A stretch of DNA of 64,000 nt from assembly GCA_021234155.1 (NCBI GenBank), contig JAJEKV010000049.1:3563487-3627486 (forward strand), in the 5' to 3' direction. The first letter of the stretch is position 1; each line of letters opens with the position of its first letter. This document shows, one piece after another, positions 40,894 to 62,793 of this stretch. The notes beneath the pieces are model-generated. The model was not told where the DNA came from. It saw nothing but the letters and a program-made list of their open reading frames with translations, and ran no database searches. The DNA is from Isoetes taiwanensis. Lineage: Eukaryota; Streptophyta; Lycopodiopsida; Isoetales; Isoetaceae. The position numbers and the translations under genes are program-made.

Positions 40894-41693
40894 TGTTATG
40901 GACCAAGCCTTGGGACCCGGAGTCTGCCATGGGAATGCCACGATATGGCCTGGGAACGTCCCCAGCAGTAGCACCGCCTAGGGGCGGCATGGGGTTATAA
41001 TTTTAAATGGCTAAACTTTCGTAAGCTAAAGTGGCCTTTTAATTAAAAGATAAAAAGAAAAGCTACTTAACCTTTGATTTGGGAGCGTGACATGGCTTGA
41101 CTTTATTGGCTGAAGGTTTTAAAAGGCAAAACCGATCTGTAACTTCGCGATTACAGCAGGTCAGTTGGATCAGCTAAAAACAGTTCGAATCTGAGCTATA
41201 CTTGCTCGATTCTTGCTCTGGAAAAGGCCCATGTGCCTTTTTCCAGCTAATCTTGGCCTTAGTGGCCCTATAAAAAGATTTGATGGGGTTTTTGGAAATC
41301 ACGGTTTTTTTTTGGAGCCAAGCAATTGGAGCAATCTGCCTTACCTGGTAGCTTGATCTCTTGTTGCTGGAGGTTTTGATCCATTGCAAACTGATTGAGC
41401 ATTAATTCGACCTGTTCTAAGCCACTTCACTATTTGGTGTTACCTTGAGGTGGCGCTCCATTCTTGGAGTGTTTCTGACTGCTCTTTGAGCAATACTGCT
41501 ACTGCAGTATCAAGTTCTTGTGTTGGAACTTCTGAAGCTGGGCTTCAGGCTGATCGTTGGTCTGTAGCAGTCGTGCAGTTGATCGTTGGGATCTGTAGCA
41601 GTCGTGGGTGGGGAGCTCTGGGAGCTCACGGTTGAGGGGAACTCTGGGAGTTCTAGGTAGCGCGATCGGACCTACTTTCCGTAGGCTGTGACA
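40894..41693 (+). repeat. E3 5' LTR
   Basis: TGTTATGGACC...GGCTGTGACA; partner at 62008-62793. Contains GGGAGCTCACGGTTGAGGGG near 41615 and a duplicated CTGATCGTTGG motif around 41550-41590 that the other LTR lacks. Confidence 0.93.
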
Positions 41694-43005: not shown

Positions 43006-43735
43006 ATAATTGCCAGGGCATGGGTCATATTACGAGACAATGTCCTAAGCCGCAAAAGCCAAAGAAGGCGGTAGCCGCGACGGCCAAAACACCATCGGAT
43101 GGTGAAGCTGTGAAGACACTATCGGCCATCGCGAGAGAAGAAAGCATGGTAAATGATTCTTCTAAAGTTTTCTTTGGTAAAGTCATACGGGTTCTAGGTA
43201 GAATCAAGGGAAAGAACGTGGTTGTTCTTATTGATTCTGCGAGCACTGACAATTTCTTGTCTGCAGACTTAGCAACGGAGCTAGGCCTGGAGCTGAGGAA
43301 GGTGACTCCGTATGTAGTTGAAGGAGAGGCGGGGCCTCAGATTCAACATGGAGATCAACAAGCGCAGGGCGTAGACTTGACACTTCAAGATAGAAGTTCA
43401 CCTAGGGCAGCACAATTTAGAATTGATGTTGATTTGATCAATTTGAAACGTTATGGTATCATTTTGGGGATAAAGTGGCTTCAAACTGCACGTCCGCTTA
43501 TTCATTGGCCATCCAATGTGTTAACTTTTGAGTTAGAAGACACTAAGTCTGTCAATATACAAGGATCGCCATATGTGGGATCTGGAAAATTGTTGTCGGC
43601 CACTCGGGCCAAACTGCTTTTAGAGTGAATAATAATCAAGTTTTTGGAATTTATGTATATGATGATGATATATGTGTCAAAACTTGTAATTCACTTGTAG
43701 AGCAACCGGATGAAAACTCTCAGCCTCATCCTCAG
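43006..43735 (+). pseudogene. E3 zinc knuckle and aspartic protease
   Basis: CQGMGHITRQCP at 43013 is the second half of a CCHC knuckle whose first Cys is lost to a one-base deletion. The protease follows: NVVVLIDSASTDNFLSADLA at about 43217 (active site D-S-A where D-S-G is normal, so probably inactive) and YGIILGIKWLQTARPLIHWP. Cut off at 43735 by E4 in the linker before RT. Confidence 0.85.
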
Positions 43736-45370
43736 TGTGACGTTCCAGGGAAATATACGCCATTAATACGTATATTCCTGGATCCGTCACCATACAAGTC
43801 TACACATGTAGCCTTTTATACCTTAGAAGTGGCAAGGGGCACATATCTAAGTTAATTGTTTAACTTAGATAACCTTAGGATAAGGCCCATTTCCACATGG
43901 CCTTATCCTATTGGGCAACTGCCACACGGCCCCATCCTATTGGTGCCACGTGGCATCCCATGTGGACCTTCACCTATATTGGCTCAAACCCTAACCCTAG
44001 ACCCCTTTCCTGACTCTAGCACCTGAACACTCATCTACACACTCGAAACCCCGTTTCGAGCATCGTTCGCCGTAGCATAGCCTAGTGCAGCAGCCCCCGA
44101 AGTGTGTGATGATCGTGGAGGGAGCACGACTTCGACCACGTCAAGGAGCAATGGAGACACCAAGGAAGTGCGTCTGGAGCAGGTAGGTGGAGTAGAGTTC
44201 ATAGTGGTTCATCTAGAAGTTAGTACTCCAGATGGGTCTATATGTTGTATCTAGAGTAGAGCCATCCTAGAACCTTTGTTGAACATCTTGAACCCTAATC
44301 AAGGAACCCTAACTGTAAGTTAGATATGTATGATTAGGTTAAGATGTTCTTATGATGTTACCATGGTATGATGTGAGGTGATGATGGTTGATCATGTTTG
44401 CTCCTCTTGTATTGGGAAGGGGGGTAGAGACCTAGGGCCATATCTAGTATGCTCCTAGTGTAGATCCCTTAGTTCCTATTATTATGCGGCCTGTGCATAG
44501 GAACCCACCGGGCTATGGAGGCTATGATGTGACTCAGCACTACACAACGGGGCTAGCGGCAATGCGGAGGGAGGATCCCTGCCGAGTGGGGGCTACGGGG
44601 GATCCCATAGTGGGCTAGGCTTATGGTCGGTCACTTCATGTGGGCCGAGCATGTGTCCGACACCTCCTGGGGCAATGGTGTTGCCCTGCCTCTCAAGAGT
44701 TGCAAGTGTCAGCTTGGCTCTTGTTTTGGGGGGTTCAGTCGGGTATGAATCGTGTGTCGCCACGATTCTCTAGCCGCCCGAGGAGTCTCTAGACCCCGGG
44801 ATGGGGAGATGCAACCCGTCCTGCCTCGACGGTCCAGGGAGATGCAATCTGGAATAGTCCCGATGGGTGATGCCATGGGATTGCGTATCCAGAAGGCTAG
44901 AGTCATGTCAGAGCCTGATCTGACCCATCTGCAAAGTATGCACAGGAGGGGCGGATGGAGTGGTCAACCCTAGCCATTGTCTATAGCCAGCCCCGCCATT
45001 GTTATGACTCAGTCTGCTCTACCTTGAGGCCTATCCAGTCAGTTTACCTCCTTATGTGGCGGAGCCACGGGTAGGAGCTCTCATGTTTTATGGCATATGA
45101 TTATGTTCCTTGCACCTATGGATATGTGGATGAGCTGCCCATCGAGGTAGTATGATGTATTATTCTTGTTAGTTCTGACGATGTTTATGCTTCCGCTGTG
45201 ATAGGAGCCCATAGGGGAAGGGCGCGCAAGACACCTTCGTGTCCCCTTCCCGCACTACGGTGATTCCAGAGTGCCGGACAGATGGAGGGCCCGTGCGGTC
45301 GGAGGACCGGATGGGGGATTTCCTACGGAGTGTACGGCTGGGAGCCGTATATTTAGTAGGGAGCGTCACA
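43736..45370 (+). repeat. E4 5' LTR
   Basis: TGTGACGTTCC...GGGAGCGTCACA, perfect 7-bp terminal inverted repeat. Its first 175 bp hold three hairpins. TGCCACGTGGCA at 43944-43955 is a palindromic G-box. The other LTR lacks about 20 bases near 43970. Confidence 0.95.
43745..43910. promoter_or_regulatory. Three successive hairpins at the start of the E4 LTR
   Basis: Hairpin 1: CCAGG(G)AAATATACG with CGTATATTCCTGG (43745-43781). Hairpin 2: perfect 12-bp TATCTAAGTTAA/TTAACTTAGATA (43844-43855, 43860-43871). Hairpin 3: perfect 12-bp TAGGATAAGGCC/GGCCTTATCCTA (43876-43887, 43899-43910). All are kept in the 3' LTR. Role unknown. Confidence 0.75.
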
Positions 45371-45371
45371 A

Positions 45372-45383
45372 TGGTATCAGAGC
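45372..45383 (+). other. E4 primer-binding site (initiator Met-tRNA)
   Basis: TGGTATCAGAGC one base after the LTR. Confidence 0.95.
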
Positions 45384-45992
45384 GATGTTCTTGGTTGACC
45401 AAGAACTAGCACTGACCAATATCCTTGAAAGTAGTCTAACAGGCCTGATAGGGTGCGAAATGAAAATTTCCACCATGGAACCTCGTAAATAGGGGAAAAA
45501 TTTTTCTCCTAGGTAGTGGGTCCGTAAGAATAGGCTAAGTCATTAGATGAGTAAAAGAATGAGTCAAATTAACATTCTAGTAAAATTGGAGTGGAAATTA
45601 TGAATCAGCATCAAATTTCACCTAATATGGGTCGAAGAATCATGACAATCCGAGATCTGGGTGAAAAATGGCGCAAATTCATAATTAACACTTCAAACCA
45701 TTAGGAAAAATTCGAAATTTTAATATAATATTGTATTAAGTAAATACTAATAATTAAGTATATTGGAGTAATTAATAGGGGAGGCTAATTATTACACCTA
45801 TTAATGGTAGGAGAATATTCCTTAGGGAACCTTTCTTTTTTGAATATCTTCTTGCCACCTCATTTCCCCCCAAACCCTACCTGCCACCTGCTCTCTCTTG
45901 ATCAGCCTTACGTCACCCATTTCTCAGACCGTAAGATATGGCCCGAACCAAGCAGACCTAACAGGAAAACTAGCCTAAGACGGACACCGTCA
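45384..45992 (+). other. E4 leader before the H3-like frame
   Basis: AT-rich to about 45800, then mixed. The frame of the H3-like protein is open from an upstream ATG at 45804, but the composition before 45993 looks like leader rather than protein. Confidence 0.5.
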
Positions 45993-46991
45993 ATGGCGGC
46001 AGCAGCAGCAGGTGGCCATGGCAAGCAAATCCCAGCGCACCTTCGGCCGAAGCCAGGAGACGAGGCATCGTCTTCTAGCGATGAGACCTTCCACATCTCG
46101 CAGGAGGAGGCCCCCAACAGCAGCAGCCCTTCATCGGCAAGCACTCAGCGAACCGACGAGAGTCGCCATTTTGGGCCCCTGTCGGGCGATGAGGTGGAGC
46201 ATCAAGAAGAAGAGCGCCGGGAGGAGAAGGCCGGGCACCAGCAGGCAACAGCTTCTTCTAGCAAGGAGAAGAAGGGGAAGGATAAAGTAGCGGAGTGGCC
46301 AGAAGAAACGGCGGCAAGGAAGAAGAGGGAGAGGGAGTTGCGGGACAAGGAGCGGAGGACCAAGAGGAGGAATGACAAACCTCGCAAGCCTCGCGGGACG
46401 GTCACAATAGAAGAACCTCGCCCATGCGAGGTAGATGAAGAGGACGAGGAGGAAAGAAGTGGCCCAAGCCACCCAAGGTAGTTAAGAAGCAGAAGGTGGG
46501 TGAGCGAGAGTTCACACTCAAGCAAGATCGCGAATTCAAGCGCAAAATGAAGGCGTACCAGGAGTACCTTCGTCGTTGGACGGGGTATAATGATTGGTAC
46601 TGTAAGCAGAATGTCGAGAGGTTTGTCAAGGGCGGGCGGCCGAAGAACCAGTCGAAGCCGCCTCCACCTAGGCCGGAGAAGCCCAAGAAGAAACATCATG
46701 GGCCCAACTCTCGACACGCGCGGGTGTTTCGGGAGATTAGACACTTTCAACAGTGTACTAATCTCCTGATAGGAAGGCGCCTTTCGAACGCCTCCTCCCC
46801 GAAGTCATGCAGGAGTTCCGACGGATTACAGGGTTACCCCTCTAACCACCCGGGCCCTGCAAGAAGCCTCAGAAGCAGAGCTGATCCAGCTCTTCGAGGA
46901 GGGCAACCTTTGCGCCATCCATGCCAAGCGGGTAACGGTTATGCCCAAAGACCCACACTTGGCGCAGAGGATCCGCAAAGAGAGGCCCTAG
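45993..46991 (+). pseudogene. Histone H3-like protein with long charged tail, carried by E4
   Basis: Start chosen at 45993 (MAAAAAGGHGKQIPAHLRPK). A tail of about 235 residues is rich in Ser, Glu, Lys and Arg (KKRERELRDKERRTKRRNDK, PPPPRPEKPKKKHH) with a middle block YQEYLRRWTGYNDWYCKQNV. From 46715 the frame aligns with histone H3: RVFREIRHFQQCTNLLI (alpha-N), [16 protein letters not shown] (alpha-1), [17 protein letters not shown] (alpha-2), [16 protein letters not shown] (one change from canonical H3) and [11 protein letters not shown], stop TAG 46989. Loop 1 is not lengthened as in CENH3. The canonical ARTKQTARKS tail is absent. Single-base shifts near 46455, 46772 and 46830 break the frame. 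Host H3 packages DNA in nucleosomes; the role for the element is unknown. Confidence 0.9.
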
Positions 46992-47749
46992 GACCTCAAA
47001 TTTTGTAATTTTGATTAAAATTAAAGCTTTCCAGTGTAAACTGGTTTTTCTTAATGCATATAAGTTCTCTTACTCTGTAAATTGGATTGCACTATGTTTC
47101 AAAAATGTAAGTAATTAAGCTAAATCGTAGTAGAATTTTTTGTAAATTGGTTAGAAACCCGAGGTTAGGACAACATTTCAGCAAAAATCATCGAAGATCG
47201 GCAAAAATCAGGCGACCTGGGTGAGATCGCGCTAATCGACCCTGCGTTCGCAACGCAGGCCCATTTCGCGCGGATTCACCCGGTTACATTGAAATTTGGC
47301 TTCTAGATGATAATTTTGCTTGAAATAAGTTGCTAGCTAGGTTAGAATTGATCCAATTAGGCATGTTAGTATCTTGTAGCTCCTAGAAATGTTGAGTTTT
47401 GACCCAAATCAGGCGAACCGGGTGAGACCGCGCCAATCTACCCTGCGTTCGCAACGCAGACGCATTTCTCGCGGATTCACCAGGGTCGCCCAATTTTGAC
47501 CTAGAATTAGCCAAATTTGACCCAACAAACGGCCATGTAGTGTTTCTTGCTTTGTTTTGCTTAGATTTGCACTTCATAGTAGTTCATTTGGAGACCTATA
47601 GCCTTAGAACAAAAGTCTCTCCCATCAAGAACCCTTGTGCACGAAACCCCAGGCAGACCATATTCTATAAAAAGGGCCTCATTTGCCATTTTCCCTTCAC
47701 CAGAACTGTTCCTAGCATCTTAGGCAATTTCCCAACCTTTCATTGATCC
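46992..47749 (+). other. AT-rich spacer with duplicated GC block
   Basis: Non-coding. Two about 90-bp copies (from about 47200 and 47400), each containing the hairpin CTGCGTTCGCAACGCAG and an AATCAGGCGAMCYGGGTGAG lead, sit in otherwise AT-rich sequence. It could be an intron or inter-cistron spacer. Confidence 0.55.
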
Positions 47750-48118
47750 TTGCAAGCCATTTTCTACACTCATTTCTGCTCAATGGTGCCTAGCAACTTT
47801 GTTAGATGGTATAATGCTGCCAGCCACATCCATGACTTTCCTGCTGATCAAGCCTTCCAGGTGTTTGACTATTTGTTTGATCTTCATGCAACCCTAACTA
47901 GGACACCCTTCTATACTGATATCATTTGCCAATACGATCAATATATCCTACCCTGGGAAGTTAGCTTACTCCCTAGGGGAGGGAATTCTAGCCAAGCCCT
48001 AGGAAGAGAGATGGGAGGATCCAAGGGCAAGAACCAGCTGTGGGATAGGACTAGAACCATGCCCGACTACATGACCTGCAGGTATAATAGGCATAGATAC
48101 CTCTCGTCACAGATCTGA
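47750..48118 (+). other. E4 accessory frame A (unknown)
   Basis: First convincing residues MVPSNFVRWYNAASHIHDFP (47783 on), then FQVFDYLFDLHATLTRTPFY and ILPWEVSLLPRGG. Aromatic-rich, globular-looking, 100-120 residues. No family recognised. A stop at 48116 and a CATGCAG acceptor-like site at 48136 lie between it and frame B; they may be exons or parts of one protein. Confidence 0.4.
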
Positions 48119-48135
48119 CAGCCCTTGCTCTATTC

Positions 48136-49297
48136 ATGCAGTATAAGTCAGTCAATAGGGTGGGAGAACCTTCCATTCAGCCTTTAGACCTAGCACCACT
48201 CAACACTCGAAGGGACCAAAGCCACATCATTGAGATAGACTCCTCCGAGTACGAGTACCATGGCACGACATCAGGGACACCAACACTGCAGATTGAGCAA
48301 GACTACGAGCAGCTAGGGGAAGAAAATCCAGATTGGGAAAGCAGGGAGGCAGCGAGGATGGAGAGGTACATGGCCAGGCACGATGACGACATCAGGCGAG
48401 CCTACGAGCCACCAATCGGCATCACAGCCCTATCACCTATAGTCATCGACGGAGAGGAGTACATCTTGGCAAACGACATCCTCAACCTACGTTACTGCCA
48501 AGAAAAAGGGCTTAGGATCGACGAGCTCTTAGGCTTGATGGCACAGGAGCAGAATATCGATTTCATTGACTACTCCTACCAGGAAATCCCAAGGGAGTTA
48601 GCAGAGCGACACTCCTATGCCGGGGAGACAATGTCAGATATAGCAGCCTATCAGCAGATAAGGGAGCTCTATCGACAACAAGAACCCATCATCCCAGAGG
48701 AGGAGTTCCAAGAAATACAAAGCAGGTTGTACAAACCAGGAAGAGGCCCAAGCTCTAGCCGGACAGTCCATTCCAGGAGTATGCGGGAAGCATCCAGCAG
48801 CATCAGAACACAACTACCATATGTGGAGGGATCATGAAGACCTCTTGGCAGTAGATGTCTACGGCGGGGCAACTCAAAGGAAGGGCACAGGATCACGAAG
48901 CACATGCAAGGGTACGGCGCTCCGCTACTACCTCCCAGTCCTCAGTCAAGGGCAGATGATAGCCTTCCACAAGGAGTTCAGCCCAAGAGAGGAAGAGTCT
49001 GTGGCGCTCCTCATAGCACTCTCTGGCTTCGGGCAGCACTCCAAGATATACGGCCATGCGGATCACATCGTTCTCTTCAAGAGATCTGTGGCACTCCACT
49101 GCCTCGACTTCGCCAGAGGCCACCTCAGGGACGCGACACTGTCAGTAGTAGCGGCAACCGCACCAGAACTCCCGGCACCGGAAATGGCCCGAGCACTCGA
49201 GGGAGGTTCAACCAGGAACATCTTGCGCAACCTCGGCAAAGGCCTTCGGCTTAGGGACGTCAAGAATTTCTTCAAGTTGACGAAGGGCCATCGATGA
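48136..49297 (+). pseudogene. E4 accessory frame B (unknown, about 390 residues, one frameshift)
   Basis: 48136-48837 codes an acidic, helix-rich protein (SHIIEIDSSEYEYHGTTSGT, WESREAARMERYMARHDDDI, EYILANDILNLRYCQEKGLR, YQQIRELYRQQEPIIPEEEF). After a shift near 48825 another frame continues to 49297 with a more basic, compact region (ALRYYLPVLSQGQMIAFHKE, FKRSVALHCLDFARGHLRDA, NLGKGLRLRDVKNFFKLTKG). GC-rich codon use resembles the H3-like frame, unlike gag-pol. No known domain seen; I looked for a histone H2A, H2B or H4 fold and could not support one. Confidence 0.5.
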
Positions 49298-49532
49298 TAA
49301 ATAATTTCTGTTTCTAATTATCTTCTAAGTTATATTGAATGTCTTCACTCCTATATATCATTATCATGTATCTTATATCAATGTGTAGCTTTTATATTAA
49401 TGACTATAAATTGTCTTTAACTTATAAGTGCAATTTTGGCATGATTTCTTTTATACTCAACAAGAATTCACTTGTAAATAAGGATGAATAATATATAACT
49501 AAAGTAACAGTATTGATGACTAATACTTGCAG
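49298..49532 (+). other. Intron-like AT-rich spacer before gag
   Basis: 235 bases of strongly AT-rich sequence ending in TAATACTTGCAG (49521-49532), a good 3' splice site. The gag frame is open right from this point (RNIGSSSQGQGRYHQWVPRN), 33 codons before its first ATG. This suggests gag is expressed from a spliced RNA. Confidence 0.5.
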
Positions 49533-50800
49533 CCAGGAACATCGGCTCAAGTTCTCAAGGCCAGGGCCGATATCACCAATGGGTACCTAGAAACTTATTT
49601 GGACGTGAACAAGACGACAACAACGAGGAAATGACGGTGGAATCAATCAACGCAAGGCTCACCCAGATGAGGAACCAGATGCACCAGCTGATTCATTGGG
49701 TCACCCCATTGATGAACGCTCAAGAATATGCACCTGCATCACCACCTCCTCCACCACTACCTCAGCAAGGCGTTGAGGAGGTTCCACAACCAGAAGGGGA
49801 AGGCAATCAGGGAAATGTCAGGGACAGAAAGAGAAAAAGAAGAAACCGAAGGACCCCAACACCATCCAGCTCCAGTTCATCAGATGCTTCTGGCAGCCAG
49901 GACAGTTCTAGCTCAGAGAGTGAGTCCGATACATCACAGGTAAGAGCCAGGGCAAGGAAGACAGATGACTACCAGAAGAAAGTTGACAGCGCTATGAGCA
50001 ATGTATGGAAGACTAGGAAGTTGGATCAGTTTTCAGGGAAAGACAGGTGAGGCATGGAGGCAGAAGCTTGGCTTGATGAGATGGAAGAGTTTGGCAATTC
50101 TTATGGCATGAAGGACAAAGATATAGGGAAGGTTGATACAGCAAACTTAATAGGAGCAGCCAGAATTTGGTGGAAGGGCTATGCGAAGTCCAATAAGCTG
50201 AAAAAAAACAGTTGCAGATTCAAGATCTTCAGCAAGGCCTTTCGCAAACATTATGTGCCAAGATCACATACTAGCAGGCAGATCCAGCAATTCTACAGGT
50301 TGAACCAAGGTACCTTGTCAGTAGCCAAGTACACAAAGGAATTCATGCGTCTCAAGCTCCATGTTCCCGGAATTTCTGAAAGGCAAGCGGTTGATGGATA
50401 CATTGAGGGATTGAACAGCAATATCAAAAGGCTAGTCCGAGCAATCAACCCAAAGACAGTAGCAGAAGCCGAGGATAAAGCTATAAGCTTGGAAGAAGCA
50501 CCACAAACTCCAGGGGAGAAACAGTTTCTAGACAGCCTGCCCAAGGAAAAGAGGCAGGAATGTATCGAGAAGAAGCTATGTTTTAGGTGCTTCCAGCCAG
50601 GGCACCGAACACACGATTGTCCATTCGTCATGCAGGCAGCTTTGGCAGAACTTGCAGATTGGGATTCACCAACCGAGGGAGACAACGAAGAGGACGACCA
50701 GCAGGAGGCGCAAGATTTCATTAGGGTGAGTGCCATATTTGTGCAGCTATTGAGTCAGATGATGTTGAAAATCAGTCCACAGTCATTGCGGCTGAGGGAA
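49533..50800 (+). pseudogene. gag: E4 gag with zinc knuckle
   Basis: First ATG at 49631 (MTVESINARLTQMRNQMHQL), Pro- and Ser-rich linker with basic KRKRRNRR, one TGA at 50048, then capsid: AEAWLDEMEEFGNSYGMKDK, LIGAARIWWKGYAKSNKL, FSKAFRKHYVPRSHTSRQIQ, GTLSVAKYTKEFMRLKLHVP, RAINPKTVAEAEDKAISLE. CCHC knuckle CFRCFQPGHRTHDC at 50579-50620 binds RNA. An acidic tail leads into protease through a one-base shift near 50740. Confidence 0.9.
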
Positions 50801-51370
50801 TCATAGATAGCAGTCCATATCTAGTCTTGATAGATACAGGTAGCTCTCACAACTTTGCCTCTCCTAGGCTGGCTGCCCTAATGAAGAATAAAGTTTTGAA
50901 GTCCAAGCCAAGACCAGTGAGTATGGCAAATGGTGCCATTCGTCACACTAAGGGGAGGAGGATCACATTTGACATAGACCTTAGTGGAAGCAAGTGGCCG
51001 ATGGGGGCAGAGGTCATGGATATTGGAAAGTATGACCTTATAGTGGGAATGGAGTTCCTAAAGCCGGCTAAAGCGATGATTGACTGCGATCGTAATGAGA
51101 TCTCCATGACTGCACCGGACGGCATCAGATTCATAGTGAAAGGTAAGAAGGTAGCTTCTCTCATGCAGTGTATTTCTTTGAAGCAGCTAAGGAAAAGTAT
51201 AGAAAGAAACAAGGTGGAGTATATCCTGAGGGTTAGAGGCAATTGAACCATCTAAAGAGAAAGGAAGTGACTTAAGTGAAAATCAGCTGCCCAAGCCGGT
51301 AGCAAGGCTTGTCAGAGAATTCAATGATGTATTTTCGGATCAAATCCGTCAGCTACCACCTTATAGGGGT
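50740..51370 (+). pseudogene. E4 aspartic protease
   Basis: VIAAEGIIDSSPYLVLIDTG then SSHNFASPRLAA holds the intact D-T-G active site (about 50826-50840); GKYDLIVGMEFLKPAKAMID is the second block. A one-base shift near 51235 connects to the RT leader ([20 protein letters not shown]). Confidence 0.88.
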
Positions 51371-52890
51371 GTGGAGTGTGAAATCACACTAGCTCCAGAT
51401 GCGAAGCCTACCAGTAAGGCACCTTATAGGATGAGCACCCCAGAGTTGATTGAGCTCAAGAAGCAGCTACAGGAATTGCTTGACCTTGGATTTATTAGGG
51501 CAAGTGTGTCTCCTTTTGGAGCACCCATACTCTTCGTGAAGAAGAAGGACGGGAGTTTAAGAATGTGCATAGATTATCGCCAGCTCAACAAGCAGACGAT
51601 AAAGAATAAGTATGCCTTGCCAAGGGCAGATGATTTGATGGACCAGCTCCAAGGAGCAAAAGTATTCTCGAAGATTGACTTAAGGTCAGGGTACCATCAA
51701 ATAAGGATAAAGGAAGAAGATATCTATAAGACTGCCTTTAGAACGCGGTATGGGCACTTTGAGTTTACGGTCATGCCCTTTGGATTATCGAATGCCCCGG
51801 CAACCTTTATGCGTCTCATGAACGACATCTTCAGGGAGTTCTTAGATGAGTTTGTCATCGTTTTCTTCGACGACATTCTAGTCTACAGCAAGTCCATTGA
51901 AGATCATTGTCAACATTTGAGAAGAGTGTTGGAAAAGTTGAGACGGCATCGCTTGTATGGGAAGCTCTCCAAATGCCACTTTGCTACTGAAAGAGTGGAG
52001 TACTTGGGCCACGTGATATCAGCGGAAGGGATCTCCACCGACCCCGCAAAGATAGAAGCAGTAGTTGATTGGCCAGCTCCAAAGAATGTGGCAGAAGTGA
52101 GGAGCTTTCTAGGTCTGGCAGGATATTATAGGAAGTTCGTAAAGGACTTCGCCAAGTGGGCGTCCCCTTTGACGGAACTCACTAAGAGTGTTAAGGTGAA
52201 AGATTGGAGAGCACATTGGCTAGAAAATGTTCAAGCTTCATTTGAAAAGCTTAAGGAAGCCTTAACAACAGCACCAGTGTTAGTTCTGCCGGATCCAGAT
52301 AAGAACAAGATAGTAGCAACGGATGCAAGTAAGATAGCAACAGGTGGAGTCCTTATGTAAGAAGGAAGAGTAGTAGCCTATGATTCCAAGAAGTTGAACG
52401 ACGCCGAGCAGCGTTGTCCAACCCATGATCAAGAACTTCTAGCTATTGTGAGAGCCCTTCGTATTTGGAGGCATTATTTGCTTGGAAGGAAATTTCAGTT
52501 AGATACTGATCACCAGAGCCTCCAATATATCTTTACCCAACCACTCCTCAATCTAAGGCAAAGGAGGTGGATGGAATTCCTAGAAGAGTATGATTTTGAG
52601 ATTGCTTATAAGCCGGGTAAGTTGAATGTGGTTGCTGATGCTCTCTCTAGAAGACCCCTTGAGACGAGAACACATTGTAATGCTATATCAACTCTTTCGA
52701 GTGGGTATGGCAAGAAAATTGAGGAGACATTACCATCTGATGGTGATTTCAAGGAGGTATGGGCAAGCCTCTCTAAGGAGGCTAGAACAGATAAGGAACG
52801 GGAAGCCTTCAAACATTATAGGAAGGAGGCAACCTGTTATACCATAAAGATAAGTTGTGTGTGCCCGAATCGTCAGGTGTAAGGAAGTTA
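51371..52890 (+). pseudogene. E4 reverse transcriptase and RNase H
   Basis: Open for 329 codons: [80 protein letters not shown], then [13 protein letters not shown] (catalytic F-F-D-D at 51861-51880) and [20 protein letters not shown]. Connection [20 protein letters not shown]. RNase [16 protein letters not shown], a TAA at 52358 where relatives have Gln, then HDQELLAIVRALRIWRHYLL, DTDHQSLQYIF and NVVADALSR, so all RNase H acidic residues remain. A shift near 52850 follows. The best preserved pol of the window. Confidence 0.95.
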
Positions 52891-54202
52891 ATTCTTCATG
52901 ACACACACAACAGCCCAATAGCAGGGCATGCGGGTTTTATGAAGATGTATTTCAAGATTCGGAGTAGCTATTTCTGGCCGGGGATGAAGAAACAGATAGC
53001 CAGATATATTCGGGAGTGCCAGTTGTGCCAGCAGACTAAGGCAGAGCAGCTTTGAATCCCAGGAGCCTTGGAACCTTTAGCAGTGCCGAATGCAAAATGG
53101 GAAGTGGTAAGCATGGATTTTATCACAGGACTTCCTAGAACTCTACGAGGCAAAGATGCATTAATGGTTGTCGTAGATAAATTATCTAAGATGGCACACT
53201 TTGCGCCTTGCAAAACTACGGACACAACCTTAGACACTGCCAAGCTATTTGTAAAGGAGATTTTTAGACTCCATGGCATGCCTCGAGAGATAATATCAGA
53301 CAGAGATTCCAAGTTCATGAGTGCATTTTGGCAAGATCTTTTTGCTACGATCCAAACCAAGCTCTCGATGAGCACGGCATACCATCCTCAGACGGATGGC
53401 CAGACGGAGCGGACGAATCGCATCATCGAAGATATGCTCAAAAGTTATGTGTGGAATAAGCAATCCAAGTGGGATGATTACATCCACTTGGTAGAATTCG
53501 CCTACAATAGTACGAAGCAGGAGTCATCTCAGATGTCTCCCTTCATGATCAATTACGGGTACCAGTGCCTAACACCGGATACTTGGCACAACCCTGTGTC
53601 AAAGGTTGAAGTATCCCAGCAGATGCTAGGAGATATGCAGCAGCTGGTGGAAGAAGTAAGGGGGTACTTGTTAGCAGCAAGAAGTCGGCAGAAGAGTGTA
53701 GCCGACATGCACAGGACCGTAAGGGAGTTCAAGGTAGGTGATAGCGTGTGGTTGAAGATCAAGGTAAAGCAAGCTAAGCTTCGCATAGGGAATTGCAAGA
53801 AGCTTGCCCCTAGGTGGGCTGGTCTATTTAAGATTTTGGAGAGAGTGGGCTCTCAAGCCTACAAGTTGGATCTTCCGGCCCATCTCAAAGTTCACAAGGT
53901 CTTCCACGTAAGTTTATTGAAAAGGCACAATCCTAACCCTAATGAGATCTTGGATACTCCAACCTTGTTGGAAATGATAGAAGAGCAAGTTGAAATTGTG
54001 CCTGAATTGCTTCTTGATAAGTCATTCAAGAAGACTAGGAGATCTCAGTTCCCACTATTTGGTCAAGTGGAAGCACTTGCCCGTGGAAGACGCAACATGG
54101 GTATTGAAGCAGGATTTGGAGAAGCAATACCCGGACTTCATGAAGGAGTTTGATGGGCGAGTCGTCTCCGACCTGGTCGACCCCGACTCATCAGGAGGTT
54201 AG
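52880..54202 (+). pseudogene. E4 integrase with C-terminal chromodomain
   Basis: Zinc domain LHDTHNSPIAGHAGFMKMYF and ECQLCQQTK (HHCC complete), TGA at 53053, then core: SMDFITGLPRTL (D), MPREIISDRDSKFMSAFWQD (D), YHPQTDGQTERTNRIIEDML (E), so D-D-E is intact. GPY-type region WLKIKVKQAKLRIGNCKKLA, PRWAGLFKILERVGSQAYKL, HKVFHVSLLKRH. After a shift near 54020 a chromodomain follows: HYLVKWKHLPVEDATWVLKQ, DLEKQYPDFMKEFDG, stop at 54200-54202. Chromodomains direct these elements to marked chromatin. Confidence 0.93.
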
Positions 54203-55031
54203 CTTAGTATGCTTCTTAGTTAGCCTTAGCTCTGGCAGATGTATTCTAGCTAATGGAATACATATGCCAGAATCTTGGAACGTGTAGGTGATAATGAGAT
54301 ACGCCTTTAAGGCATTCTCTAGGCCAACATGCACCAAGAGGTGCGCATGACCAATAGGGCCATGCGAGAGAGGAAGTGAAGCATGGTGGGCGATGATGGG
54401 ACATCGGTCGGATGCTCTCTATGCCGCGATGCGGGGCTCGCACACCTGGCCATAGGGGGGTCATGGTGAAGGTCAAAGTGATCATGCGCGATGATGGGAT
54501 CGTGAGACGTTCCCTAACTTAAAACCCTTGGGGCATGATGCACTAGGGGTACTCGGCATCGGGTAACCGAGTACAAGGTAGCACTTGATCATGGGCAATG
54601 ATGGGATCATCTTAAATGGTCCTTAGGCTCAAATCCGAAAGGGCCATGATCGAGTGCAAGGTATTAGGTAAGGGGGGTGGTCCCCTAAAACCACAAATTT
54701 ATTAATTAAACTAACGTAATGTGCTACTCGTGCAGGCAAGTGAGAAGCGAGCATCGAGGAGGGCACATTACGAGAAGATGGGGGAACCATGATTTAGATT
54801 TAAATTATGAACCCCAATAACTCTTATAATAATGTTTTGATTTATTATAGGGAGTAACCTTGTTAAGGCTATATAATTTTGTATATATACAAATATAGCC
54901 TAAAATTTTGACAATTAACTCTTAATAGGAAGTTGATCGTTTAAATTGAATTAAAGTTATATACTTATGTTGTTTTGTAGGGATAGTGTAGGTTCGTCAC
55001 CTTAGCGCAATGCTGAGGACAACATTGTCTT
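54203..55031 (+). other. E4 3' non-coding region
   Basis: Contains three GATGATGGGAYC-type repeats (about 54390, 54491, 54598) and an AT-rich end; no gene. Confidence 0.5.
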
Positions 55032-55044
55032 AAGGGGGGGAGAA
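55032..55044 (+). other. E4 polypurine tract
   Basis: AAGGGGGGGAGAA directly before the 3' LTR, the plus-strand primer site. Confidence 0.85.
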
Positions 55045-56657
55045 TGTGACGTTCCAGGGGAATATACGCCATTAATACGTATATTCCTGGACCCGTCACC
55101 ATACAAGTCTACACATGTAGCCTTGTATACCTTAGAAGTGGCAAGGGGCACATATCTAAGTTAATTGTTTAACTTAGATAACCTTAGGATAAGGCCCATT
55201 TCCACATGGCCTTATCCTATTAGGCAACCGCCACACGGCCCCATCCTATTGGTGCCACGTGGCATCCCATGTGGCTCAAACCCTAACCCTAGACCCTTTT
55301 CCTGTCTCTAGCACCTAAACACTCATCTACGCACTCGAAACCCCGTTTTGAGCATCGTTCGTCGTAGCATAGCCTGGTGCAGCAGCCCCCGAAGTGTGTG
55401 TATGATCGTGGAGGGAGCACGACTTCGACCACGTCAAGGAGCAATGGAGACACCAGGGATGGGAGGAAGTGCGTCTGGAGCAGGTAGGTGGAGTAGAGTT
55501 CATAGTGGTTCATCTGGAAGTTAGTACTCCAGATGTGTCTGTATATTGTATCTAGAGTAGAGCCATCCTAGAACCTTTGTTGAACATCTTGAACCCTAAT
55601 CAAGGAACCCTAACTGTAAGTTAGATATGTATGATTAGGTTAAGATATTCTTATGATGTTACCATGGTATGATGTGAGGTGATGATGGTTGATCATGTTT
55701 GCTCCTCTTGTATTGGAAGGGGGGTAGAGACCTAGGGCCATATGTAGTATGCTCCTAGTGTAGATCCCTTAGTTCCTATATGCGGCCTGTGCATAGGAAC
55801 CCACCGGGTTATGGAGGCTATGATGTGACTCAGCACTACACAACGGGGCTAGCGGCAATGCGGAGGGAGGATCCCTGCCGAGTGGCGGCTACGGGGGATC
55901 TCATAGTGGGCTAGGCTTATGGTCGGTCACTTCGTGTGGGCCGAGCATGGGTCCGACACCTCCTGGGGCAATGGTGTTGCTCTGCCTCTCAAGAGTTGCA
56001 AGTGTCAGCTTGGCTCTTGTTTTGGGGGGTTCAGTCGGGTATGAATCGTGTGTCGCCACGATTCTCTAGCCGCCCGAGGAGTCTCTAGACCCCGGGATGG
56101 GGAGATGCAACCCGTCCTGCCTCGACGGTCCAGGGAGATGCAACCTGGAGTAGTCCCGATGGGTGATGCCATGGGATTGCGTATCCGGAAGGCTAGAGTC
56201 ATGTCAGAGCCTGATCTGGCCCATCTGCAAAGTATGCACAGGAGGGGCGGATGGAGTGGTAAATCCTAGCCATTGTCTATAGCCAGCCCCGCCATTGTTA
56301 TGACTCGGTCTGCTCTTCTATCCAGTCAATTTACCTCCTTATGTGTCGGAGCCACGGGTAGGAGCTCTCATGTTTTATGGCATATGATTATGTTCCTTGC
56401 ACCTATGGATATGTGGATGAGCTACCCATCGTGGTAGTATAATGTATTGTTCTTGCTAGTTCTGACGATGTTTATGCTTCCGCTGTAATAGGAGCCCATA
56501 GGGGAAGGGCGCGCAAGACACCTTCATCTCCCCTTCCCGCACTACGGTGATTCCAGAGTGCGGGACAGACGGAGGGCCCGTGCGGTCGGAGGACCGGATG
56601 GGGGATTTCCTACGGAGTGTAAGGCTGGGAGCCGTATATTTAGTAGGGAGCGTCACA
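55045..56657 (+). repeat. E4 3' LTR
   Basis: Near-identical to 43736-45370, including the three hairpins and TGCCACGTGGCA (55253-55264). Followed by CTCAG, the duplicated target. Confidence 0.95.
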
Positions 56658-57175
56658 CTCAGTTACTTGATCTTTTGGAAAGATACAAGGATGTGTTTCC
56701 CGAGGAGTTGCATATAGGGCCACCTCCGTCGAGGAGAGTGGAGCATGAGATTGACCTTGAACCGGGAACTAAACCAATGGCAAGAGCCCCTTATCGCTTG
56801 AGTCCTCTTGAGTTAGAGGAAGTCAAAAAGCAAGTTAGGGAACTACTTGAAAAAGGGTTCATCCAGCCAAATAAATCTCCTTTTACAGCTCCAGTGCTGC
56901 TAGTTAAAAAAAAAAGATGAAATTATGCGCATATGCATAGATTATCGCGCACTTAACAAAGCAACCATTAAGGATAGATATTCTTTACCACGGATTCATG
57001 ATATATTAGATCGTCTAGGTAGTGCAACTTGGTTCACCAAGATTGATTTGAGAAGTGGATATCATCAAATCAAAATTCGTGAAGGTGATGAACCAAAAAC
57101 AACTTTTCGAACTCATCAAGGACATTATGAGTTCCTCATCAAGCAAAGAGTTGCTTATTTGGGTCACATCTTGTC
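56658..57175 (+). pseudogene. E3 reverse transcriptase, N-terminal half
   Basis: Resumes E3 after E4: LLDLLERYKDVFPEELHIGP, PYRLSPLELEEVKKQVRELL, a shift in a poly(A) run near 56915, [45 protein letters not shown] then jumps directly to [12 protein letters not shown], so about 70 residues including the catalytic D-D box are deleted. Interrupted at 57175 by LINE-2. Confidence 0.9.
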
Positions 57176-57241
57176 GGGGGAAATGAAATAAAATGAAATG
57201 TTTATTAATCACGCCTGCAGTCCACTAGGTCTATGAGATGT

Positions 57242-60446: not shown

Positions 60447-60790
60447 TGTCTCAACGGGAGGGAGTATCTCCGGACCCTAGCAAGGTATGTGCGGTACATG
60501 AATGGACTCAACCTGAGAATATGCATGAGTTGAGAAGCTTTCTCGGGTTGGCTACTTATTATAGAAAATTTGTGCTCAAGTTTTCTAAGATAGTGGCCCC
60601 GCTCACCGATCTTTTGAGAAAAGATCAAGAGTATGTGTGAGTTCAAGCTCAACAAGCGGCCTTTGAAAGGAAGGAAGGACGGAAGGAAGTATATTTTAAC
60701 GTCCGTGAAGGATTAAAAGCCTTTTAGTGAGTAGTCCAGTACTAAAGGTACCTGACCTCAATGAGTCATTTGAGGTATACACGGAGGTGT
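60447..60790 (+). pseudogene. E3 RT C-terminus and RNase H remnant
   Basis: QREGVSPDPSKVCAVHEWTQ and LRSFLGLATYYRKFVLKFSK resume RT; VLKVPDLNESFEVYTE near 60733-60780 is the start of RNase H, which then jumps to integrase codons. RNase H and the integrase HH region are deleted. Confidence 0.85.
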
Positions 60791-61989
60791 TGCTGTCAGA
60801 TATGAAGAAACAAGTCCGGGACTTGGTTTCACATTGTCTGACGTGTCAAGCTGTTAAAGCTGACCATGGTCGTACCCCGGGACTATTGCAACCTATACCT
60901 ATACCCTTGCAAAGATGGGAGTGTATATGGACTTCATAGTCTCTTTGCCTAGAACTGTAAGGCAGAACACTCAGGTATGGGTGATTGTTGATTGCCTAAC
61001 TAAGTACGCCAAATTTGTGGCCTTGAAGGAGGATGCTACTGGTCCAGATGTAGCAATTGCATATATGAGATATGTTTTTCATCTTTTTGGTTTGCCTTTG
61101 TGTATCATAAGTGATCGGGACGCCAAGTTTACAGGTTATTTTTGGAAGGACCTTATGAAAGTTCTTAAGGTATGATTGAGAATGAGTAGTGGTAACCACC
61201 CACAAACAGATGGCCAAACTAAGAGAATCAACATGATCCTCGAGGATATGTTGAGAAGTTTTGTCCATGAATGCCAAACTCGTTGAAAGGAGTATTTGCC
61301 TTACCTAGAGTTTGCGTATAACAACAGCCATCATACGGGAATTAAAATGACTCCCTTTGTTGCTATGATGGGGCAAAATCCCAGAACTTATGCTGGTATG
61401 CACAATACCTAAAGACGGATGCCGTCGTAAATATGTTGGATGACATGAATGCAATTTTACTTCAGTGTCAGCAAAACTTGCGAAGAGCGCAAGATCGCAC
61501 TCACGTGTATGCGAATAAGCGTAGACGTGATGTTACCTATGAGGAAGGTGACTGTGTTTTTAAGGATTATGTATCCTTCGTCATTACGAATCAACACCCT
61601 TAAACCGTTGGTTAAAGGGCGTGTGCCTAAGTTAACCCCGAGATATGTTGGACCTTTTAAGATTGTCAAAAGGTTAGGACCCACGACATATGAGTTGGCG
61701 TTACCGCAGGATATTGGGATCCATCCTGTACTTTATGTAAGTCGTCTTAAGTGAGCTATACTAGATACGGACAATGTTGTTAGTCCTGAGAGTATACCGC
61801 TAGTGCTAAGGTCCGCCGTAACACCCGAACGGATTCTAGATACTCCTGTTCGACAGTTGCGCAATAGAGATATTCGTGAATATCTGGTCTTGTGGCGAGG
61901 CCAGTCTCTCGCAAATGCCACTTGGGAGACGGATGAGTTTGTGCAACGTTTTCCTCATTTGAGACTCTAGACCTTGAGGACAATGTCAT
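60790..61989 (+). pseudogene. E3 integrase with chromodomain
   Basis: KQVRDLVSHCLTCQAVKADH is the end of the zinc domain. Core: MDFIVSLPRTVRQNTQVWVI (D), LPLCIISDRDAKFTGYFWKD (D), HPQTDGQTKRINMILEDMLR, where the catalytic Glu of G-Q-T-E-R is Lys. LTPRYVGPFKIVKRLGPTTY and HPVLYVSRLK follow, then a chromodomain: IREYLVLWRGQSLANATWET with FVQRFPHLRL, stop near 61968. Stops and shifts at 61171, 61282 and 61752. Confidence 0.88.
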
Positions 61990-62007: not shown

Positions 62008-62793
62008 TGTTACGGACCAAGGGCAAGTCGCGCTTCCGGGCCTTGGGACTGGTAGTCTGCCATGGGAATGCTACGGGTGGCCTCGGAATGTCCCGAGCAG
62101 TAGCACCACCTAGGGACGGTATGGGGTTCTAATTTTAAATGGCTAAACTTTCGTAGGCTAAAGTGGTCGTTTAATTAAATTATAAAGTCCTTAAAGAAAA
62201 GCCACTTAACCTTTGATTTGGAGGCGTGACGTGGCTTGGTTTTATTGGCTGAAGGTTTTAAAAGGCAAAACCGACTTGTAACTTCGCGATTAAAGTAGGT
62301 CGACCGGATCAGCAACAAACAATTCGAATCTAAGCTATACTTGCTTGATTCTTGCTCTGGAAAAGGCCCATATGCCTTTCTCCAGCTAATCTTGGTCCTA
62401 GTCGCCCTATAAAAGGATTTGATGGCGTTTTTGGAAATCATGTTTTTCCTTTGGAGCCAAGCAATTGGAGCAATCCGCCTTACCATCTTCTGTTGCTGGA
62501 GGTTTTGATCCATTGCGAATTGATTGAGCATCAATTCGACCTATTCTAAGCTACTTCACTATTTGGTGTTAGCTTGAGGAGGCGCTCCGTTGTTGGAGTG
62601 TTTCTGATTGCTCTTTGAGCAATACTGCTACTGCAGTATCAAATTCTTGTGTTAGAACTTCTGAAGCTGGGCTTCAGGCTGATCCTGGGGATCAGTAGCG
62701 ATCGTGCGTGGGGAGCTCTGGGAGCTCACGGTTGAGGGGAACTCTGGGAGTTCTAGGCAGCGCGATCGGACCTGCTTTCTGTAGGCTGTGATA
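62008..62793 (+). repeat. E3 3' LTR
   Basis: TGTTACGGACC...GGCTGTGATA; matches 40894-41693 with more differences than the E4 pair, including a TG..CA end mutated to ATA. Followed by TGGAG (62794-62798). Confidence 0.92.

Follow-up and report, generated by a model that had tools for sequence, protein, structure and literature searches.

A decayed histone H3-derived gene within a Ty3/gypsy chromovirus of Isoetes taiwanensis

Structure of the chromovirus

The window, i.e., the whole stretch of 64 kb that was analysed, harbors an LTR retrotransposon (referred to as E4) in which a histone H3-derived gene and a second open reading frame (ORF2) lie upstream of gag and pol. E4 is a Ty3/gypsy chromovirus: the LTRs, the target site duplication, the primer-binding site (PBS), the polypurine tract (PPT), gag, the order protease, reverse transcriptase (RT), RNase H, integrase, and a chromodomain are all present. 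The named lineages of plant chromoviruses are Tekay, CRM, Galadriel, and Reina. Apart from the H3-derived gene, the element contains the following features.

43731..43735, unstranded: left target site duplication CTCAG, matched at 56658-56662
43736..45370, + strand: 5' LTR (TGTGACGT...GCGTCACA), delimited by LTR-LTR comparison
45372..45383, + strand: primer-binding site TGGTATCAGAGC, directly after the 5' LTR
47783..49297, + strand: ORF2, about 500 aa, between the H3-derived gene and gag, with frame changes near 48100 and at 48740-48840
49631..50803, + strand: gag, in which Pfam finds a capsid domain and, weakly, zinc knuckles; in-frame stop at 50048-50050
50725..51243, + strand: protease (RVP_2, 3.7e-11)
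51230..52879, + strand: reverse transcriptase and RNase H (Pfam); in-frame stop at 52358-52360
52822..54150, + strand: integrase (H2C2, rve, SH3-like; Pfam); in-frame stop at 53053-53055
53981..54199, + strand: chromodomain at the integrase C-terminus (Chromo PF00385, 2.5e-10)
55032..55044, + strand: polypurine tract AAGGGGGGGAGAA, before the 3' LTR
55045..56657, + strand: 3' LTR, with the same ends TGTGACGT...GCGTCACA
56658..56662, unstranded: right target site duplication CTCAG

The bounds that the first-pass annotation had drawn from the LTRs and the CTCAG duplication are confirmed, and a PBS, which we take to be of the initiator tRNA-Met type, and a PPT are also found at the expected ends. 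The two LTRs differ by 45 substitutions over 1604 aligned columns (33 transitions and 12 transversions) and by 6 indel events, corresponding to a K2P distance of 0.029 (about 2.9% difference). The gag-pol region carries seven disruptions in 4.57 kb: in-frame stops account for three of them and frame changes for four, and one of the frame changes could be a natural frameshift site. The chromodomain retains one of the three aromatic cage sites, as judged by eye, and is thus assigned to type II. In the available text of PMC6317226, type II chromodomains are defined by their cage residues and their partners are not identified; group II chromodomains fused to fluorescent proteins localise to heterochromatin, according to the portion of PMC12786077 consulted.

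ORF2 contains at least two frame changes, and its third-position G+C ranges from 0.50 to 0.64. Three pieces of it gave no match in Pfam, one piece had no PDB match at E up to 1, and the AlphaFold2 model of one piece, obtained without alignment, reached a pLDDT of 39.

Direct repeats at 40907-41691 and 62040-62791 (86% identical) flank E4 on both sides; they may represent the LTRs of an older retrotransposon in which E4 is nested; pol-like similarity is found to the right of E4, at 56723-57182 and 60458-61751. Elsewhere in the window, the long direct repeat pairs 7328-9231/15637-17543 and 21739-24214/31393-33861 (95-96% identical) are probably the LTRs of two other elements.

The H3-derived gene

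The H3-derived gene extends on the + strand from 45938 to 46991 and is the first long ORF downstream of the PBS. It does lie between the PBS and gag, as first described, with the qualification that ORF2 separates it from gag; its start, previously set at 45993, is at 45938, where an ATG opens the reading MARTKQT. The gene can be divided into five parts.

45938..45958, + strand: start, ATG and tail tip ARTKQT (codon search)
45959..46450, + strand: shifted frame, RKTS... followed by part 1 of an insert rich in Ala, Ser, Glu, and Lys (open)
46451..46768, + strand: basic part 2 of the insert, then REIRHFQQCTNLL (alphaN to alpha1; frame-tolerant alignment)
46769..46818, + strand: third frame, 16-residue stretch from L1 to the start of alpha2 (frame-tolerant alignment)
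46819..46991, + strand: alpha2-L2-alpha3, C-terminus TDYR...RIRKERP and stop TAG (PDB, Pfam, alignment)

The H3 fold that had been proposed for this chromovirus is real. A 72-aa piece read in a single frame (46773-46988) matches solved H3s in the PDB with an E-value of 3.4e-17 and the Pfam Histone family PF00125 with 1.9e-14 (54.4 bits, against a cut-off of 26.4), and the frame-tolerant alignment of 45900-47010 to plant H3 scores 243, while shuffled sequences (n=12) do not exceed 46. This alignment, which the first-pass annotation had suggested as a check, has no gap between residues 49 (the start of REIR) and 134 and passes through two frame changes (46769 and 46819), so that the complete histone fold is spread over three frames. 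At the 84 of its 86 positions that are comparable, the fold is identical to an Arabidopsis-type H3.1 at 53 and to another plant H3 at 54, and the best value among 163 H3 windows from the proteins compared, some of them out of register, is 56/84. Identity to canonical H3s is therefore 63-67%, with 28-31 differences out of 84 depending on the reference; the single-residue difference initially noticed holds for the 16-residue stretch (I119V) and not for the fold as a whole.

As to the type of H3, the 60 PDB matches listed of 173 for the 72-aa piece are canonical-type H3s and variants, none of which is named CENP-A. Of the features of CENH3, the long tail is present in E4, but the tip is canonical. 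Residues 86-90, the chaperone-choice region, are all replaced. The 120 protein-database candidates listed of 1348 for the same piece (up to 126 aa) all contain the Pfam core-histone domain. With a length-shifted query aimed at long H3s, 3723 proteins were obtained, of which the 120 listed have near-equal scores. The two of these that were inspected (P0123 and P0148) are models with canonical H3 in tandem and are thus scored double, so that a single-domain relative could sit among the matches beyond the 120.

The tail was first described as unlike that of any H3. This does not apply to the tip: the codons for ARTKQT occur only once in the 64-kb window, with both strands considered, at an ATG that precedes the fold by about 0.77 kb and has the same orientation. 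When the 1.23-kb region was simulated 40000 times with a Markov model, such codons arose, in any frame, in 2 of the runs. After ARTKQT the frame changes and the sequence continues as RKTSLRRTPS..., whose RK was aligned by eye with R8 and K9 of H3; the order is RKTS in E4 vs. RKST in the canonical ARTKQTARKS tail. A wholly alien tail is thus ruled out by the ARTKQT...RK start. The distance from RK to REIR is about 250 residues in E4 vs. 39 in H3, and the span of the gene amounts to about 351 codons vs. about 136 aa for an intact H3 ORF. The ancestral protein was probably an H3 in which the two natural ends were set apart by a long intervening stretch, rather than a fold carried on an alien tail.

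The insert is rich in Lys, Arg, Glu, and Ser. A piece of 189 aa retrieved 216 candidates from the protein database, none at E ≤ 0.001, and its best PDB match (E 0.086) is not credible; AlphaFold2, run without alignment, predicted helices only (pLDDT 56). Codon-position G+C is 0.61/0.53/0.63 in 45959..46450, 0.54/0.39/0.66 in 46451..46768, and 0.62/0.43/0.71 in 46819..46991. In these three segments, which leave aside the 50-nt segment in the third frame and two of which are mostly insert, the composition is coding-like, with the second position lowest. An ACGTCA motif near the start, noticed by eye as histone-promoter-like, was dropped as too short to be meaningful.

Decay, timing, and origin of the gene

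This copy of the H3-derived gene is a pseudogene, because its frame changes four times (at about 45959, at about 46440-46480, at 46769, and at 46819, the last two inside the fold). These changes rule out an intact gene. At the rate observed in gag-pol, 1.6 breaks would be expected in the H3-derived gene (P 0.08 for four or more), so that the gene is about as worn as the rest of E4, perhaps slightly more.

The suggestion that a host gene was captured stands as the best reading of an H3-derived gene inside a complete chromovirus. In our opinion, it is somewhat probable that an ancestor of E4 captured a canonical-type host H3 gene, which took the place of the first long ORF in the element and has since decayed. 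The divergence of the fold (about one third of the residues) greatly exceeds the K2P distance of 0.029 between the LTRs, and most of the change must therefore be older than this insertion; by a neutral route, about 0.23 substitutions per site would be needed to reach 53/84 identities.

A tangible, if lesser, possibility is that the gene has always been a passenger, i.e., that a host H3 transcript entered by template switching and was copied along without ever being of use to the element. The broken state of the copy agrees with this, and so do the H3-like copies in hAT transposons of Pseudocercospora fijiensis and its relatives, which were inactivated by RIP according to the available text of PMC6710886. 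The same may be said of the H3-like gene (H3L) of Pyrenophora tritici-repentis, which in the opinion of its authors may have drifted, even though intact copies make up most of the 26 (PMC3538342, in the portion consulted). However, both ends of H3 are preserved in E4, and the composition stays coding-like through a long insert that is not expected from an H3 transcript.

The outcome of the tests for past selection on the fold is marginal, which is compatible with a passenger; at the same time, neutral drift predicts more stops and indels than are seen. Drift to the observed identity would lead to a mean of 1.7 stops, whereas none is present (P 0.18 when taken alone), and to a mean of 7.9 indels, a figure derived from the indel-to-substitution ratio of the LTRs, whereas two frame changes are present; the joint probability of stops and frame changes is 0.004, or 0.047 at half the indel ratio. 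The substitution score gave P 0.076, and conservative positions gave P 0.22 (P 0.051 in combination with stops). The Pfam score of E4 (54.7 bits) ranks second of ten, the other nine being neutral stop-free simulations with 36.5 to 54.8 bits. Identities are not significantly clustered in the fold (P 0.16 and 0.15). Of 37 residues taken as contact residues, 29 are preserved (P 0.015), with no enrichment in either the DNA-contact subset alone (11/16, P 0.46) or the H3-H3' interface subset alone (10/12, P 0.12). Taken from the sequence of this copy, these values, none of which is decisive by itself, together with the codon-position G+C make us lean towards a protein that was once functional; any such selection could have acted either in the element or in a host H3 variant before its capture.

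It is improbable, on the other hand, that an already diverged host H3 variant or retrocopy landed in this copy of E4 after its insertion. The third-position G+C of the H3-derived gene (0.63-0.71) is indeed higher than that of gag (0.52) and RT (0.49), as a late arrival might suggest, but two of the three ORF2 pieces also reach 0.60-0.64, and in this respect the gene is not singular. Moreover, no poly(A) run was found in 46985-47400, and no direct repeat above chance flanks the gene (45700-45940 vs. 46985-47250; best 9 nt, 0.38 expected). Since neither mark is present, the evidence favours an H3 gene that was carried by the element family before this insertion over a later landing of a diverged H3. 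Lastly, an origin of the histone-like stretch by chance or convergence and not from H3, in favor of which there is only the need for three frames to read the fold, is ruled out by the PDB (3.4e-17), Pfam (1.9e-14), and alignment (243 vs. at most 46 in shuffles) scores and by the separate ARTKQT tip.

The H3-bearing E4 is known from one copy, which weighs against the proposed capture. The rest of the 64-kb window, three other LTR-like repeat pairs included, shows pol similarity to E4 and no credible similarity to the H3-derived gene (best 24 residues, 24.9 bits). Scans of IMG/VR with the RT, the integrase, the H3 piece, and an ORF2 piece, of GTDB contigs with the RT, and of plasmids with the H3 piece revealed no relative.

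Known parallels and possible role

The capture of H3 is already known for fungal hAT DNA transposons. In P. tritici-repentis, the available text of PMC3538342 reports H3L in 26 copies of a hAT transposon, with insertions in the tail, and in the long form of this transposon H3L lies beside an ORF of unknown function. E4 shares with it an H3-like gene in a mobile element, the insertions in the N-terminal tail, and the neighbouring ORF of unknown function; H3L fully matches neither H3 nor CenH3. The two cases differ in that the fungal one concerns a class II transposon with 26 very similar H3L copies and ESTs, and E4 is an LTR retrotransposon with one broken copy. In the elements of P. fijiensis and its relatives, too, a transposon took up a host H3, which was then amplified; unlike E4, they are fungal DNA transposons whose captured copies were inactivated by RIP, and a long tail insert is not mentioned in the consulted text of PMC6710886.

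Among plant LTR retrotransposons, a Ty3/gypsy lineage of orchids has acquired an AlkB-type m6A demethylase that is active in vitro (PMC9289625, in the portion available). As in E4, an extra host-derived gene related to the epigenetic or epitranscriptomic layer is embedded in a plant Ty3/gypsy element, and this lineage represents a precedent for reading E4 as a capture; the orchid elements differ in the gene acquired and in the number of consensus sequences that contain it, which is 38 in one species and 23 in another. Genomes of 121 angiosperms and 25,565 consensus sequences were covered by the screen described in the same source, and 15 extra domains passed its filter; the nine of them that we count in the results include no histone, and the word histone appears twice in the main text, on neither occasion for a histone carried by an element. 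In maize Bs1 (PMC7264820) and in the genes captured by LTR retrotransposons of rice and sorghum (PMC3726574), host sequence lies between LTRs, usually in the gag-pol sense, as in E4; the word histone is absent from the main texts of these two sources, in the portions consulted. No histone gene in an LTR retrotransposon was found among the open-licence literature matches listed, although such a case may exist elsewhere in print.

Few eukaryotic genes are as constrained as those for histones, and histone tails bear the marks involved in the silencing of transposable elements. If the gene was captured as proposed, the following history may be envisaged. An ancestor of E4 would have taken up a host H3 with its tip (ARTKQTxRK), full fold, and C-terminus, and the placement downstream of the PBS would have included it in the transcript of the element itself. 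The stretch between tip and fold would then have grown to about 250 residues, either within the element or within a donor that had diverged, and the fold would have drifted to about two-thirds identity with H3. The ancestral product would probably have been a chromatin protein similar to H3 variants, whose fold could pair with host H4, whose long charged linker could bind nucleic acid or partners, and whose H3-like tip would be accessible to the enzymes with which the host reads or modifies H3 tails. Its likeliest use would have concerned the cDNA or the new insertions of the element. The H3 of this copy would have decayed later, alongside its gag and pol.

As far as sequence features allow a judgement, an action of the ancestral H3 on the cDNA or new insertions of the element is a possibility that we regard as doubtful, and a functionless passenger is about as likely. 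The roles suggested at first, namely that the protein packages cDNA, marks integration sites, or shields the element from silencing, are hypothetical. The more specific idea, namely that the E4 family encodes an H3 variant of its own (H3 tip, linker of about 250 residues, and nucleosome-competent fold) that would coat cDNA, mark insertions, or act as a partner of the chromodomain, appears unlikely. If true, an H3 encoded by the element itself would offer an LTR retrotransposon a direct route for acting on host chromatin, and an action of this H3 on chromatin would parallel the possible action of the orchid element on RNA marks. The independent capture of H3 by fungal hAT elements hints at a recurrent advantage.

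Some minor features of the leader and of the regions between the genes concern the expression of E4. The leader contains 11 ATGs upstream of the H3 start, which disfavours translation of H3 from the full-length transcript by simple scanning. The region 49298-49535 is A+T-rich and ends in ...TACTTGCAG just before gag; since this end resembles, by eye, that of an intron, the transcript from which gag is expressed may be a product of splicing. Between the H3-derived gene and ORF2, two copies of a hairpin-forming repeat were detected.

47205..47283, + strand: 79-nt hairpin-forming repeat, copy 1 (z -4.3)
47406..47484, + strand: 79-nt hairpin-forming repeat, copy 2 (z -2.5)

A search of 43700-56700 against Rfam, hairpin repeats included, and a tRNA scan of the window gave nothing. 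The two copies are 89% identical and form long hairpins around CTGCGTTCGCAACGCAG, folding that only 1 and 3 of 200 shuffles, respectively, equal; they are possibly an RNA signal of E4.
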